DNA of 27,704 bases from a virus, in the IMG/VR virus record IMGVR_UViG_3300021373_000309, positions 1 to 27,704 of that record; one strand, 5' to 3'. The translations under genes and the position numbers were made by a program. Positions 6,570-24,231 of the stretch are shown in pieces (position 1 is the stretch's first letter; each line of letters opens with the position of its first letter). A model generated the notes under the pieces. It saw only the letters and a program-made list of their open reading frames with translations, had not been told where the DNA came from and did not search any database.

Positions 6570-6746
6570 ATGCATAAACATCCTGTACCAGCGCGTATTA
6601 AGTACCATGTCATGGAAAAGATGATAGAGTTAGGTTCTGACGTAGACAGCGCAACAATGAATAAAATGTTCAAAGCACTTGATGAAGGTATCAAGGCTGC
6701 GAACTTGCACCACGATCAAATGATGGAGAGCCTACATGACCAATAA
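6570..6746 (+). CDS. Small first gene of the rightward early operon, 58 aa
   Basis: An ORF read directly: ATG at 6570 preceded by GAGG at a suitable distance, ending TAA at 6746 and overlapping the next gene by 11 bases. The protein starts MHKHPVPARIKYHVMEKM, is helical and charged, and ends HHDQMMESLHDQ. It is unrecognised. Position directly behind the early promoter suggests an early regulatory or takeover function. Confidence 0.65.
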   Translation: MHKHPVPARIKYHVMEKMIELGSDVDSATMNKMFKALDEGIKAANLHHDQMMESLHDQ

Positions 6747-7350
6747 GTTTCAAACAGCAATGGATTTCGTTGCAGACCTCAACAAGTCACATGGGGTCAT
6801 GCAGCGAGGTGGTAAACAGTACACAGAGGTAGCAAAGCGCGTTGAAGCGTTCCGCACTGTGTTTGGTGGTGAATACGGTATTGATACTGACATTATCCAC
6901 AATGACGGTCAGACAGTGGTGGTCAAAGCTACGGTCAAAGACAAAGACGGTTTTGTTGTTGGATCGGGTCTGGCAGAAGAAATCCGTGGATCGTCACACA
7001 TTACAAAGACATCTGCTGTAGAGGTATGCGAAACATCAGCGATTGGACGCGCTCTGGCTTCTATGGGTATGCATGGCGGTCAGTATGCATCAGCTAATGA
7101 GATGGAAGGTGTTAAGCGTAAAGAGCAAGCAATTAAAGCATCAGACGCTGCTCCAAAGCCATCAATGGAACTTGATCTCGCAGCGCGTGTAGATGCTGCA
7201 CTGACATTCTATGAACACTGCGATGCCCAGCGCTTTGCAAGCAATGAGAGCCGCTATAAGAAACTAATCAACAGCCCTGATTTGTCAGAGCCACAATATG
7301 AACAGCTTGTAGAAGCACATGACAAGCGTAAAACGGAGCTAATGGTATGA
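6736..7350 (+). CDS. Erf/Rad52-like single-strand annealing protein
   Basis: A 204-residue recombinase. Residues 76-112 carry the signature of the phage annealing family: GSGLAEEIR, then TSAVEVCETSAIGRALASMGM, as in Erf and related Rad52-fold proteins. The N-terminal part (residues 1-75) has the beta strands of the fold (TDIIHNDGQTVVVKATV) and the C-terminal tail from about 120 is charged and helical. It would anneal complementary single strands during phage recombination, working with SSB encoded next (four-base overlap ATGA) and RusA. A GGAGAG ribosome site precedes ATG 6736. Confidence 0.8.
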   Translation: MTNKFQTAMDFVADLNKSHGVMQRGGKQYTEVAKRVEAFRTVFGGEYGIDTDIIHNDGQTVVVKATVKDKDGFVVGSGLAEEIRGSSHITKTSAVEVCETSAIGRALASMGMHGGQYASANEMEGVKRKEQAIKASDAAPKPSMELDLAARVDAALTFYEHCDAQRFASNESRYKKLINSPDLSEPQYEQLVEAHDKRKTELMV

Positions 7351-7727
7351 AAGTATGCACTATTATCGGGCGTGTCACCAAAGACAGTGAAATTCAACAG
7401 AACGAGAGAGGGGGATTTCTCAAGTTTTCAGTCGCAGTTGATGATGGCTATGGAGCAAATAAAGGCACGATCTTCTTTGACGTTGACTATAACCGAACAG
7501 GAATTGCCCAGTACGTTACGAAAGGAAAACAAGTAGGCGTGTCTGGTGAGTTAAAGACCCGTGAGTATAACGGTAAAACTTACCTGAGTATTCGCGCTAA
7601 TGACGTTAAGCTGATCGGTGGTGGTCAACAGCGTGGACAAGTATCGCACACTGAGCATGAACCACAGCGCATGGCAGAGGGCCAGAAGTTTACAGAAAAC
7701 GAACTAGACGATGAAATTCCATTCTAA
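7347..7727 (+). CDS. ssb: Single-stranded DNA-binding protein
   Basis: A 126-residue OB-fold protein. N-terminal strands (TIIGRVTKDSEI; GGFLKFSVAVDD), the central TIFFDVDYNRTGIAQYVTKGKQV and the GELKTREYNGKTYLSIRANDVKLIG segment follow the bacterial SSB pattern. The C-terminus is a flexible linker ending DDEIPF, the acidic tip through which SSB contacts partner enzymes. It would coat single strands at forks and during annealing. Coupled to the annealing protein by ATGA overlap. Confidence 0.9.
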   Translation: MKVCTIIGRVTKDSEIQQNERGGFLKFSVAVDDGYGANKGTIFFDVDYNRTGIAQYVTKGKQVGVSGELKTREYNGKTYLSIRANDVKLIGGGQQRGQVSHTEHEPQRMAEGQKFTENELDDEIPF

Positions 7728-7735
7728 GAACAGAG

Positions 7736-7789
7736 GCAGATCAAAATAAACTCCAAATGGCTTTGGATTTTAATTGGGTTTTGATCTGC
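7736..7789 (+). other. Nested inverted repeats, possible structured RNA (element A)
   Basis: GCAGATCAAAA (7736-7746) and TTTTGATCTGC (7779-7789) are perfect 11-bp complements. Inside them TCCAAA (7752-7757) and TTTGGA (7762-7767) form a 6-bp hairpin with a TGGC loop. The element starts nine bases after the ssb stop and no U tract follows, so it does not look like a simple terminator. Confidence 0.6.
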
Positions 7790-7802
7790 TATCCACCCGC
7801 AT

Positions 7803-7845
7803 GGGGGGGATGTGTTGCAGCACATCGGGTCTGTAAAGCCCCCCC
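7803..7845 (+). other. G7/C7 stem with inner hairpin, possible structured RNA (element B)
   Basis: Seven G (7803-7809) can pair with seven C (7839-7845). Enclosed is ATGTG (7810-7814) with CACAT (7821-7825) around a six-base loop, then an unpaired GGGTCTGTAAAG stretch. It lies 20 bases before the next start codon at 7865, so it could influence translation of that gene or be part of one larger RNA with element A. Confidence 0.55.
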
Positions 7846-7864
7846 ACTAAACACAAGGGCAAAT

Positions 7865-8257
7865 ATGACAAAATTACAAATGGAACTGAGGAATGGGTAC
7901 TTAGTACCTGTTTCTCAATATGACGCAGAGCGCATGGAAGACTTGCCAGACGGGACACTGTTTAACCTGTCACAAACAGGCAAGCGATCTAACCCGCATC
8001 ATAACCTGTATTGGTCCACGCTGCGCAGGGTAGCTAGGGACACAGGCAAATGGCCCACAGAGCATCACCTGCACGATGAGCTAAAGATTGCGTGTGGTTA
8101 TGTGCGGATCAAGTTATCTGCGCTGAACGGGGAACTGGTAAACATACCTGATAGCATCAGCTTTGATAAAATGAACCAAGCAGAGTTTTTCAAATACTTT
8201 GAGATGGCAATGAAGAAGCTGGCAGAAGGAATAGGATATGACCCACTGGAAACCTAG
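7865..8257 (+). CDS. DUF1367-like phage protein, 130 aa
   Basis: The start at ATG 7865 (MTKLQMELRNG) is chosen because the frame upstream runs through the structured RNA region and has no conserved-looking sequence. The protein has YLVPVSQYDAERMEDLPDGTLFNL near the N-terminus, a KRSNPHHNLYWSTLRRVA block, and SISFDKMNQAEFFKYFEMAMKKLAEGIG near the C-terminus, which matches the layout of DUF1367, a family found among the recombination genes of lambdoid phages. Function is not known; position next to ssb fits a role in DNA recombination. The ribosome site is weak (AAGGG). Confidence 0.6.
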   Translation: MTKLQMELRNGYLVPVSQYDAERMEDLPDGTLFNLSQTGKRSNPHHNLYWSTLRRVARDTGKWPTEHHLHDELKIACGYVRIKLSALNGELVNIPDSISFDKMNQAEFFKYFEMAMKKLAEGIGYDPLET

Positions 8258-8684
8258 CGAGGAAATGGTGCAGCGCGAGTTAGACTTGTGTGAGCGTTTA
8301 GGTAGGAAGTGGAAATGCACGGTTGAGATGCAGCATAAGTACAGTGTTTTTGATGCTGTAGCTCACAAGAAAAATAAACCGCAGGCATTCGTAGAATTAC
8401 GCATCATCAATTACGCTTTCTATGATCTTCCAGACATTATGATAAGTTTGACAAAATGCACTGCGGGTAAAAACCAAACTGAGATAACCGGGCTTCCTAG
8501 CCTGTTTGTGGTACACTGGAAAAAAGACGATACCATTGGCTACATAGACATCAACAAGACTTATCACGGTGAGCCAGATTACAGGGTGTCAAAGAAGGGC
8601 ATGAACAGACTGAATGATGAGGAAGAAATAGAAGTCTGCCGCCATGTCAGAACGTCACAGTTTAAGGTGCTAACAAACATATGA
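8238..8684 (+). CDS. Unknown protein with a possible PD-(D/E)XK nuclease-like core, 148 aa
   Basis: Unrecognised by family. The stretch SVFDAVAHKKNKPQAFVELR (residues 36-55) has an Asp39 and, after a short spacing, Glu53-Leu-Arg55 at the end of a beta strand, followed by a helix and SLFVVHW-x-GYIDI strands. This is the order of a PD-(D/E)XK nuclease fold, though Arg replaces the usual Lys. It overlaps the DUF1367-like gene by 20 bases and lies among recombination genes, so a DNA-processing role is plausible. Confidence that the ORF is real is high; confidence in the nuclease idea is low. Confidence 0.6.
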   Translation: MTHWKPSEEMVQRELDLCERLGRKWKCTVEMQHKYSVFDAVAHKKNKPQAFVELRIINYAFYDLPDIMISLTKCTAGKNQTEITGLPSLFVVHWKKDDTIGYIDINKTYHGEPDYRVSKKGMNRLNDEEEIEVCRHVRTSQFKVLTNI

Positions 8685-8857
8685 TTAACTTCAACAATAA
8701 ATCAAAGACTGAAATAGAGTTGATTATAGAAAGCAATAAAACGTCAGCAGGTGGGTGGACGAAAAAAACATTAGAAAGCTGGGGTGTTTCATGGCCCCCA
8801 CCAAAAGGGTGGAAGCACGACTTAATTGACAGGGGTTCAGATGACAAATCTAGCTAA
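8681..8857 (+). CDS. Small Trp-rich conserved-looking protein, 58 aa
   Basis: ORF from ATG 8681 (overlapping the upstream stop as ATGA) to TAA 8857. It reads as an N-terminal helix TEIELIIESN followed by GGWTKKTLESWGVSWPPPKGWK, with four Trp and a Pro triplet. I recall small phage proteins with the same GWT-x-TL-x-x-WG-x-x-WPPPKGW layout, function unknown. It overlaps the HNH gene by 17 bases. Confidence 0.65.
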   Translation: MINFNNKSKTEIELIIESNKTSAGGWTKKTLESWGVSWPPPKGWKHDLIDRGSDDKSS

Positions 8858-9179
8858 ACGCCCACCTCTTGGCCTAAAGAAAGACAAGCCACTGCGCAGC
8901 AAGAAGATGTTGGACAAGATACGCGAACTGCCCTGTGCGGTCTGTCAGGCCCACGGTGAGGTGCAGCTATCACCCACAACAGCGCACCATCCAATCCATG
9001 ACCGCTACGGCGTGTATAAGCGCGGAGATGATTGGGCTATTCCTCTATGCGATGGACACCATCAAGGAAACTTTGACGATAGCAAGCAGGCTATTCACAA
9101 AGACAAACGTGCATGGCGTGAAAAGTACGGCGCCGATTGGTCTTATGCGCCATTCGCAGAAGGAGAGCAAAATGAGTAA
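8841..9179 (+). CDS. HNH-type nuclease-like protein (Ref/YbcO/DUF968-like)
   Basis: ATG at 8841 with AGGGG upstream is preferred over an upstream TTG. The 112-residue protein has CxxC at 32-35 (PCAVCQ), AHHPIH at 48-53, WAIPLCDGHHQGNF at 65-78 and AIHKDKRAWREKYG at 84-97. Paired cysteines and the two His pairs match the zinc-bound HNH nucleases found among phage recombination genes such as P1 Ref and lambdoid YbcO or DUF968. It may cut DNA during recombination or replication. It overlaps the next gene by eight bases. Confidence 0.7.
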   Translation: MTNLAKRPPLGLKKDKPLRSKKMLDKIRELPCAVCQAHGEVQLSPTTAHHPIHDRYGVYKRGDDWAIPLCDGHHQGNFDDSKQAIHKDKRAWREKYGADWSYAPFAEGEQNE

Positions 9180-22665: not shown

Positions 22666-24231
22666 TCATCTCAAACTTGCAAATGTTTGTAAGTAATTCA
22701 AGAAGCCCGGCTGGAATGAGCTAGTCTGTCCAGTCGGTACGCCTGCCCCTGTCAAACCACCTAGAAGCGTATTCAAGCCACCTGTGGGTGCGCCTGTATA
22801 TTGACCAAAGTTTTGCTGCCCAGCACCAATCAAACCTTGCATGATGCCACGCTGTAGTGCGCCTTGCTGCATTTGCTGCTGCTGAATTGATTGACCCATG
22901 TTGAACTGCTGTTGACCCAAACCTGCTAAACCGCTTGCCGCACCTTGGCGAATGCCTGCGCCTTGGAATTGACCTCCAAACGTAGCTTGACGCGCGGCTT
23001 GCTCCCGCGCTGCCTGCTGTTGAGCCGCAGTATTCATTGCGCCCATGCTTGCTAATCCAGCAGCTTGCGTTAAGCCAGCCTGCTGACCTGCGCGTGCCGC
23101 ATCCTGCGCTGCGCCTGCAAGGCCAGCCTGCTGAGATAAGTTGGCTTGTAGTTGCGTCATGGCATTTTGCGCCTGCATATTTGCCTGACCTGCTTGCTGC
23201 TCAAATTGAGCTTGCTGAATAGCAAACTGATTAGCCGCTGCCATATTACCTGCACGAGCCGCTTGCTCGCGAGCCGCTGCCGCTTCGCGAGCTTGTTGAC
23301 CAAGCTGCTCCGCTTGGAAGCCTTGCTGTGATGCAAGTGTGCGTGCAGCTTGTGTTTGACCGATGTCAAATTGGCCTGACTGTAAGGCTGTCTCAAATCC
23401 ACGTTGACGCTGTTGAGCAGAAAGCTGACCCGCTTGACGTAATGCCTCGCCAGCCAAAACACCCTCTTGCACGGCTTGGCGAGAGCCACCGAATGCACCT
23501 GCGCGCTGAGCTTGAGCCGCGAGGTTTTCTGACGCGAGTTGGCGCTGGCGTTCAATGTCAGCCTGACCAGCCTCAATGACTTGCTGCTGGTATGGCGACA
23601 TGTATTGACCGATGTCAGTTGTTGCAAGCTGATTGACTGCAATTTGCTCTGGCGCTTGAGCCGCCTGAACTGCACCAACACCCTGCATACGTTCGGCCTC
23701 GCCTAGCTGCGCTGCCTGCATAGTTGCCGCTGGGCCTACAGTTGCCTCCGCAAAAGGAGTTGTGCGCTCAACAGTCGCTCCCTTGTAGATTGCTGTTGGG
23801 CCAGCCGTTGCTGCTTGCATGGGCTGCGGCTGGAACTGAGAAAGACCAGTTAGCGTGCGCTGGGCTTGATTTAAGGCACCAGAAGATTGTTGAAAAATGT
23901 TAGGCCCAGTGGGCTGCACCATTTGTGGCTGCTGCGGCTGTGGGCGAAAAAGCGAAGTATTAGCAGGATTTGGCGGCATAACCGCTGGCTGTACGCCCAT
24001 GCCGCCATAGCCCGTACCCCTGTTTGGCGGCATGACCGCTGGCTGAACACCTTGTCCACCATACCCCGGCATTCTGTTTTCTGGAAACTGCGTTTGCATA
24101 ACCGCTGGACGCATTGCACCGGGGATCAAACCACCGCCTAACTGCCTTTGTGCGTTACCTGTTGGTGTGCTTCCACCTTGTCCCGCTAAACCACCGCTTG
24201 GAAGTCTTTGTCCACCTGCTGATGCACCCAT
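22666..24231 (-). CDS. Gln/Ala-rich coiled-coil virion protein, 521 aa
   Basis: Residues 1-160 are Gly/Pro/Gln-rich and disordered, with a repeated VQPAVMPPN unit near 63-93. From about 200 to 440 the sequence is almost entirely Ala/Gln/Arg heptads (QRQLASENLAAQAQRAGAF; AAREQAARAGNMAAANQFA), a very long coiled coil. This composition fits internal-core or ejection proteins such as T7 gp15-like proteins. No enzymatic motif. A clear AGGAG precedes ATG 24231. Confidence 0.65.
   Translation of the reverse strand: MGASAGGQRLPSGGLAGQGGSTPTGNAQRQLGGGLIPGAMRPAVMQTQFPENRMPGYGGQGVQPAVMPPNRGTGYGGMGVQPAVMPPNPANTSLFRPQPQQPQMVQPTGPNIFQQSSGALNQAQRTLTGLSQFQPQPMQAATAGPTAIYKGATVERTTPFAEATVGPAATMQAAQLGEAERMQGVGAVQAAQAPEQIAVNQLATTDIGQYMSPYQQQVIEAGQADIERQRQLASENLAAQAQRAGAFGGSRQAVQEGVLAGEALRQAGQLSAQQRQRGFETALQSGQFDIGQTQAARTLASQQGFQAEQLGQQAREAAAAREQAARAGNMAAANQFAIQQAQFEQQAGQANMQAQNAMTQLQANLSQQAGLAGAAQDAARAGQQAGLTQAAGLASMGAMNTAAQQQAAREQAARQATFGGQFQGAGIRQGAASGLAGLGQQQFNMGQSIQQQQMQQGALQRGIMQGLIGAGQQNFGQYTGAPTGGLNTLLGGLTGAGVPTGQTSSFQPGFLNYLQTFASLR
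23972..24108 (-). repeat. 54-bp in-frame repeat in the coiled-coil protein gene
   Basis: GGCGGCAT-ACCGCTGGCTG recurs at 23972 and 24026, exactly 54 bases apart, and a third partial copy of GCATAACCGCTGG lies at 24096. Each full unit encodes 18 residues containing GVQPAVMPPN. The period equals that of the repeat in the 271-residue protein. Confidence 0.7.

Follow-up and report, generated by a model that had tools for sequence, protein, structure and literature searches.

Introduction

In phages T4 and RB69, the gene 32 operator is a pseudoknot located 5' of an unstructured leader that holds the ribosome-binding site, and T4 gp32 autoregulates through its own mRNA (PMC535899). STAXI, a candidate RNA with pseudoknots whose neighbours include SSB genes and others for DNA handling, consists of two or three tandem pseudoknots with frequent UUCG loops (Weinberg et al. 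2010, PMC2864571). The L17 downstream element of Lactobacillales and Listeria, together with other 3'-UTR candidates, places structured RNA past the stop codon of bacterial-type transcripts (PMC2864571). In translationally coupled gene pairs, structured intercistronic regions open depending on the ribosomes of the upstream gene; these structures are usually pair-specific and hide the start site (PMC12548453).

Here we analyse a phage locus from IMG/VR record IMGVR_UViG_3300021373_000309 (positions 1-27,704, hereafter the window, 27,704 nt), in which the gap between ssb and ninB is filled by what is almost certainly a structured RNA element. As in the gene 32 operator, a pseudoknot is followed by an open leader with a ribosome-binding site, in a phage replication/recombination operon that encodes an SSB. 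However, the T4 pseudoknot is about 28 nt long and lies upstream of the ssb gene itself, whereas our element follows ssb in most phages, carries two extra helices, has ninB or other genes downstream, and its binding by SSB is putative. It shares with STAXI the pseudoknot and the neighbouring genes, but it is a single copy built as a P1/P2/P3 junction, the window copy has no UUCG loop, and STAXI gave no cmscan hit. The L17 downstream element has the same placement past a stop codon, but it does not come from phages and gave no cmscan match. Unlike the coupled-pair structures, our element forms a conserved family and leaves the start site open. We regard the likenesses to T4 gene 32 and STAXI as a resemblance of layout, and we claim membership in neither.

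The gap between ssb and ninB

In the window, 137 bases separate the ssb stop codon (7725-7727) from the ninB start (7865). This is the sole real gap in the + strand block 6570-9179, where the remaining junctions overlap. The features of the region are the following:

7347-7727, + strand: ssb, encoding an SSB OB-fold protein with C-terminus DDEIPF (Pfam SSB, E 1.9e-11; PHROG 44, E 3.9e-18)
7728-7849, + strand: whole predicted intercistronic structured RNA element, 122 nt (match to covariance model R2 at 7726-7849, E 2.6e-27)
7730-7734, + strand: 5' strand of P1, ACAGA, beginning 3 nt past the ssb stop; in all members
7736-7746, + strand: 5' strand of P2, GCAGATCAAAA, the outer arm of the originally noticed repeat; P2 pairs in 16/16 aligned members
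7752-7767, + strand: inner hairpin TCCAAA/TTTGGA, capping P2; the family does not conserve it, other members having different apical sequences
7779-7789, + strand: 3' strand of P2, TTTTGATCTGC
7796-7799, + strand: 5' strand of P3, CCCG (64/64 standard pairs, with G-C/T-A and C-G/A-T covariation)
7803-7809, + strand: G run in the P3 loop, putative 5' strand of the pseudoknot; at least 5 G in all members, invariant
7810-7825, + strand: extra small hairpin ATGTG-TTGCAG-CACAT in the P3 loop; window's subclass only
7826-7829, + strand: 3' strand of P3, CGGG
7830-7834, + strand: 3' strand of P1, TCTGT, followed by a conserved AAA
7839-7845, + strand: C run outside P1, putative 3' strand of the pseudoknot; invariant
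7846-7864, + strand: A-rich leader, unstructured, carrying a Shine-Dalgarno site (AAGGG, 7855-7859); distance to the ninB ATG, 19 nt
7865-8257, + strand: ninB/Orf recombination mediator, the downstream cistron (PHROG 319, E 7e-13)

As had been read from the letters, the two P2 arms are perfectly complementary over 11 bases and enclose a second hairpin, TCCAAA (7752-7757) with TTTGGA (7762-7767). With loops limited to 60, no perfect inverted repeat in the window is longer. Taken alone, this repeat is weak evidence and unremarkable, since 26 of 100 dinucleotide-shuffled windows hold at least one perfect inverted repeat of 11 or more. The 139-nt gap RNA is more stable than shuffles, with z -2.8 when folded as RNA and -4.5 as DNA. 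An intrinsic terminator was rejected because no T run follows either P2 or the C run; the earlier observation to this effect stands, and the site is not among the terminator-like sites. Elsewhere, at 23971-24034, a minus-strand ORF contains a perfect 10-bp inverted repeat (CATGCCGCCA/TGGCGGCATG) together with overlapping repeats of 9 bp, perhaps originating from repeated codons.

The interval first proposed, 7736-7789, does contain the repeat, but it covers just one of the four helices of a larger, pseudoknotted element. The architecture comprises P1 (ACAGA/TCTGT), a variable P2 hairpin, P3 (CCCG/CGGG) and a pseudoknot between runs of five to seven G and five to seven C, whose partners lie in the P3 loop and in the sequence 3' of P1. 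The extra hairpin in the P3 loop is also present in L089, L155, L247, L248 and L250, with changed letters in both loop and stem. Folding of the leader after the pseudoknot is no better than that of shuffles, so this stretch is open.

A family of elements in uncultured phages

The comparison with relatives is the decisive evidence for a structured element. As relatives we took viral contigs carrying ssb and ninB (143 loci), and the family was searched for with covariance models R1 and R2 and with pattern scans aimed either at the core or at the subclass of the window. The element was found in at least 28 further uncultured phage contigs, some of them near-duplicates, in ssb/recombination gene clusters. 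The subclass of the window escapes detection by R1. For R2, five contigs other than the window served as input, and its match to the window copy therefore places that copy in the family through a model made from other members. R2 also matches L019 and recovers the divergent R1 branch at E-values from 1.7e-8 to 4.6e-3 (L087, 1.7e-8; L169, 6.3e-8; L157, 1.7e-6; L012, 3.7e-4), which are approximate because the calibration was short, although the bit scores separate clearly. No match was obtained on six loci that lack the element. In the 21 viral records searched in full, R1 found at most one match per record.

A search of viral contigs for the exact arms returned one contig, which was unrelated, and neither the window region nor the element of L011 has DNA similarity to cultured phages. 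Among 84,980 bacterial and archaeal species, each represented by one genome, the pattern gave 29 hits, mostly with Chlamydiae titles; none of the 17 tested with R1 was confirmed (best E 1.1), and comparable hits among viral contigs resembled tRNA-Tyr. Note that the core CTGTAAA with its flanking G and C runs (GGG..CTGTAAA.CCCC) is also the anticodon arm of tRNA-Tyr, so simple pattern searches for the element catch tRNA genes as well. A tRNA or tRNA-like identity was considered and rejected: ARAGORN found none in the window, and a Tyr-like anticodon arm (GGGACTGTAAATCCC), possible in L019 and L169, is broken in most members. A loose descriptor search was too noisy to use, with 92 hits in shuffled sequence.

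Rfam 15 (all 4227 families) gave no hit in the window at the gathering cut-off. With cmscan at E 10, nothing was found over the element in L006, L011, L019 or L169, and the window had only sub-threshold chance hits. Literature searches on related terms, covering open-access papers, yielded no description of the element. The best reading is that it represents a previously unlisted family absent from Rfam.

Pairing is preserved through sequence replacement

Next, we aligned 16 members by hand and verified the alignment against the DNA. All 127 of 127 P2 pairs are standard, across five unrelated sequence types. In support of this, exchanging the P2 arms between members left 49% paired. On the sense strand, the 16-member alignment holds nine G-U and no A-C pairs in P2; three members added later contributed one A-C mismatch position, in L247 and L248. 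P3 pairs in 64 of 64 cases; pair 1 is C-G in some members and A-T in others, and pair 4 likewise switches between G-C and T-A. Thus, the compensatory changes that the sequence-only reading had proposed to look for were found, the P2 arms pairing through complete replacement of their sequence. In the tool alignments, covariation of the whole structure exceeded that of all 500 shuffles and of all slid versions. Note that model alignment A6 misplaces P2 in L006, L170 and L155, so the per-pair counts of P2 and P1 for those rows are unusable.

P1 (ACAG/CTGT) shows no covariation and one G-U, and its fifth pair fails in L019, L169 and L182; the G and C runs of the pseudoknot do not vary across members. 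Since neither helix varies, covariation offers no proof of them, and we infer that both are real. For the pseudoknot this relies on the covariation of P3, the conservation of both runs and a pattern scan that did not require G5/C5, which found no family member without the runs and thereby excludes search bias. Programs unable to draw pseudoknots often favour competing nested hairpins in their minimum free energy folds, and by z-score most members are no better than shuffles. Compensatory changes, the presence of G-U with almost no A-C, the sense-only orientation and the covariance-model matches together argue for a functional RNA structure, and we have little doubt that a structured RNA element exists here.

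The ssb-ninB junction is polymorphic

Among relatives, the ssb-ninB junction differs. At ten loci with ssb at least 89% identical, only TG or TA precedes the ATG, giving a 1-nt stop/start overlap. The element is inserted in the window, L006, L011 and L012, with an extra gene after it in L006 and L012. In the inserted elements a common core runs from GAACAG, at the stop codon, through a hairpin that varies to CCCn, GGGGG, nGGG, CTGTAAA and CCCCC. The absence of the arms in relatives, or non-compensatory changes in them, had been named as the observation that would count against the repeat; the outcome is mixed, since most close relatives indeed lack the whole element and have the 1-nt ssb/ninB overlap in its place, but the carriers keep the arms paired. 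Since most near relatives manage without it, the element is dispensable.

In all members the element is in sense orientation. It starts 0 nt from the upstream stop in most of them (7 nt in L022, 12 nt in L025 and L027), and in the other members 16-39 nt separate its end from the next ATG. Readthrough of the stop codon or frameshifting into ninB was rejected, since the gap length modulo 3 differs among members. A small peptide in the gap was also rejected: although no stop interrupts the ninB frame across the gap in the window, gap lengths and frames differ in the relatives. Anti-Shine-Dalgarno pairing with P3 or the C run is possible in single members and, judged by eye, is not conserved.

The ssb gene lies directly upstream in 22 of 29 contigs, including the window, and belongs to several divergent types. 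Four contigs of the L155 type (L155, L164, L173 and L175) have instead an Erf-like annealing gene upstream (PHROG 2324, E 1.7e-35). In these, a 124-aa protein encoded after Erf and the element (L164:4071-4445) ends in the SSB-like tail DDEIPF, has no detectable SSB domain and is not recognised as SSB; it is possibly an unrecognised one, judging by this tail. Its AlphaFold model in L164 has a pLDDT of 38, too low for any conclusion. In L025 (4058-4433) and L027 (5354-5729), ssb is followed by an additional small gene and only then by the element, which can therefore part from ssb. Together with Erf in the L155 type, this indicates that the linkage to SSB is not strict. In L100/L156 the contig is cut. 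The downstream genes vary, encoding NinB, PHROG 5931 proteins, PHROG 13625 proteins or unknowns; in L146 and L012, the gene after the element encodes a PHROG 5931 protein of unknown function.

A different GC-rich hairpin occupies the same slot in L015, whose NinB protein is identical. This second structured element, motif B, has the form GGGGGTGGG, a hairpin GTCAGGTTT...AAACTTGGC, AGGAAG and CCCACCCCC. It lies at L015:5379-5463 and at the same site downstream of ssb in L023, L026 and L028-L040, and its inner stem carries compensatory changes in L030 and L038. Because a T5 run follows it, the L015 copy resembles an intrinsic terminator.

Alternative explanations

The element starts right at the upstream stop in nearly all members, the upstream ssb is nearly constant while the downstream gene is variable, and other relatives place a different GC-rich hairpin in the same slot. 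All this would fit a fold that guards the 3' end of the ssb message or acts there as a processing barrier, stopping 3'-to-5' exonucleases or marking an RNase cut, with ssb and downstream mRNA levels set separately. We consider this unlikely, since a mere barrier needs no conserved core, pseudoknot or CTGTAAA, and the elements of the L155 type and of L025/L027 do not directly follow ssb. Somewhat less likely again is a passive modular joint: a conserved boundary sequence that serves related phages as a site of recombination, where cargo genes come and go. Close relatives do differ in whether they have the element and in what cargo separates ssb from ninB, and L006 and L170 combine one P2 type with different 3' flanks, yet recombination needs identity, whereas P2 pairing outlasts replacement of the sequence, and the finding of at most one R1 match per record also speaks against it. 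The compact junction and pseudoknot with a conserved unpaired AAA might suggest a ribozyme that cleaves itself or a riboswitch that binds a ligand, in either case of a class not yet described, since small ribozymes and riboswitches already known are of comparable size. This is improbable, given that no Rfam ribozyme or riboswitch matched even at E 10, that the downstream genes have no common metabolic theme and that few unpaired bases are conserved.

The sequence-only reading had offered a small RNA, an RNA-binding site or a cruciform in the DNA with a part in replication. The evidence supports a functional RNA structure well, and by position a cis-acting or RNA-binding site fits best, but nothing supports the other two options. 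A cruciform or single-strand hairpin acting in replication or SSB loading would agree with the stability of the fold as DNA and with the adjoining SSB and recombination genes, and an equivalent proposal was made for STAXI by its discoverers (PMC2864571). However, the pairing is non-nested, the strand is constant relative to the genes, P2 tolerates G-T nine times in the 16-member alignment and shows no A-C there (L247/L248 have a single A-C position), and most relatives with the same replication genes lack the element, which leaves this a very remote prospect. Just as remote is an independent gene for a trans-acting small RNA: the fold is stable and intergenic, but no promoter-like site adjoins it on the + strand (promoter hits were at chance level), no intrinsic terminator follows it, and the P2 loop sequences are not conserved. 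That the repeat arose by chance in a spacer, as the frequency of 11-bp repeats in shuffled windows might suggest, is scarcely credible: the covariance-model result refutes it, and the pairing and covariation of P2 and P3 speak against it.

Discussion

The reading we prefer, and to which we give an even chance, is that of a conserved, cis-acting pseudoknot RNA occupying the space between two cistrons of the phage recombination operon and regulating the downstream one. The sense orientation, the placement past one stop and before the next start, and the open leader point to action in cis on the downstream cistron, a claim we likewise judge to be evenly balanced. That the element sits in sense within a presumed polycistronic mRNA is well supported, as is its folding into P1, P2 and P3, with a putative pseudoknot in which the P3 loop pairs with bases immediately 3' of P1. 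The 1-nt ssb/ninB overlap of the relatives would thus be exchanged for a folded RNA and an open leader with its own Shine-Dalgarno, and we infer that the element sets how the next cistron is translated. On terminating at the ssb stop, a ribosome would sit over the 5' strand of P1, so that translation of the upstream gene could open the fold.

More speculatively, and rather doubtfully, a protein may read the fold, most likely the phage SSB, which would nucleate on the pseudoknot, spread over the A-rich leader and repress the downstream gene, in the way T4 gp32 acts on its own mRNA. The hypothesis of SSB as the ligand is based on gene adjacency. The varying downstream gene argues against a gene-specific regulator, and the unrelated hairpin of motif B in the same slot elsewhere would suit a less specific role.

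The element would represent a conserved structured RNA outside Rfam, carried by uncultured phages. Its presence, absence and replacement among near-identical phages constitute a natural experiment on operon control. In a reading more tentative still than that of SSB as reader, it may define a new family of phage pseudoknot operators, through which SSBs other than that of T4 control neighbouring recombination genes, as an independently evolved gp32-like circuit with a replaceable P2 arm. If SSB is the partner, control through an SSB and a pseudoknot would not be a peculiarity of T4.
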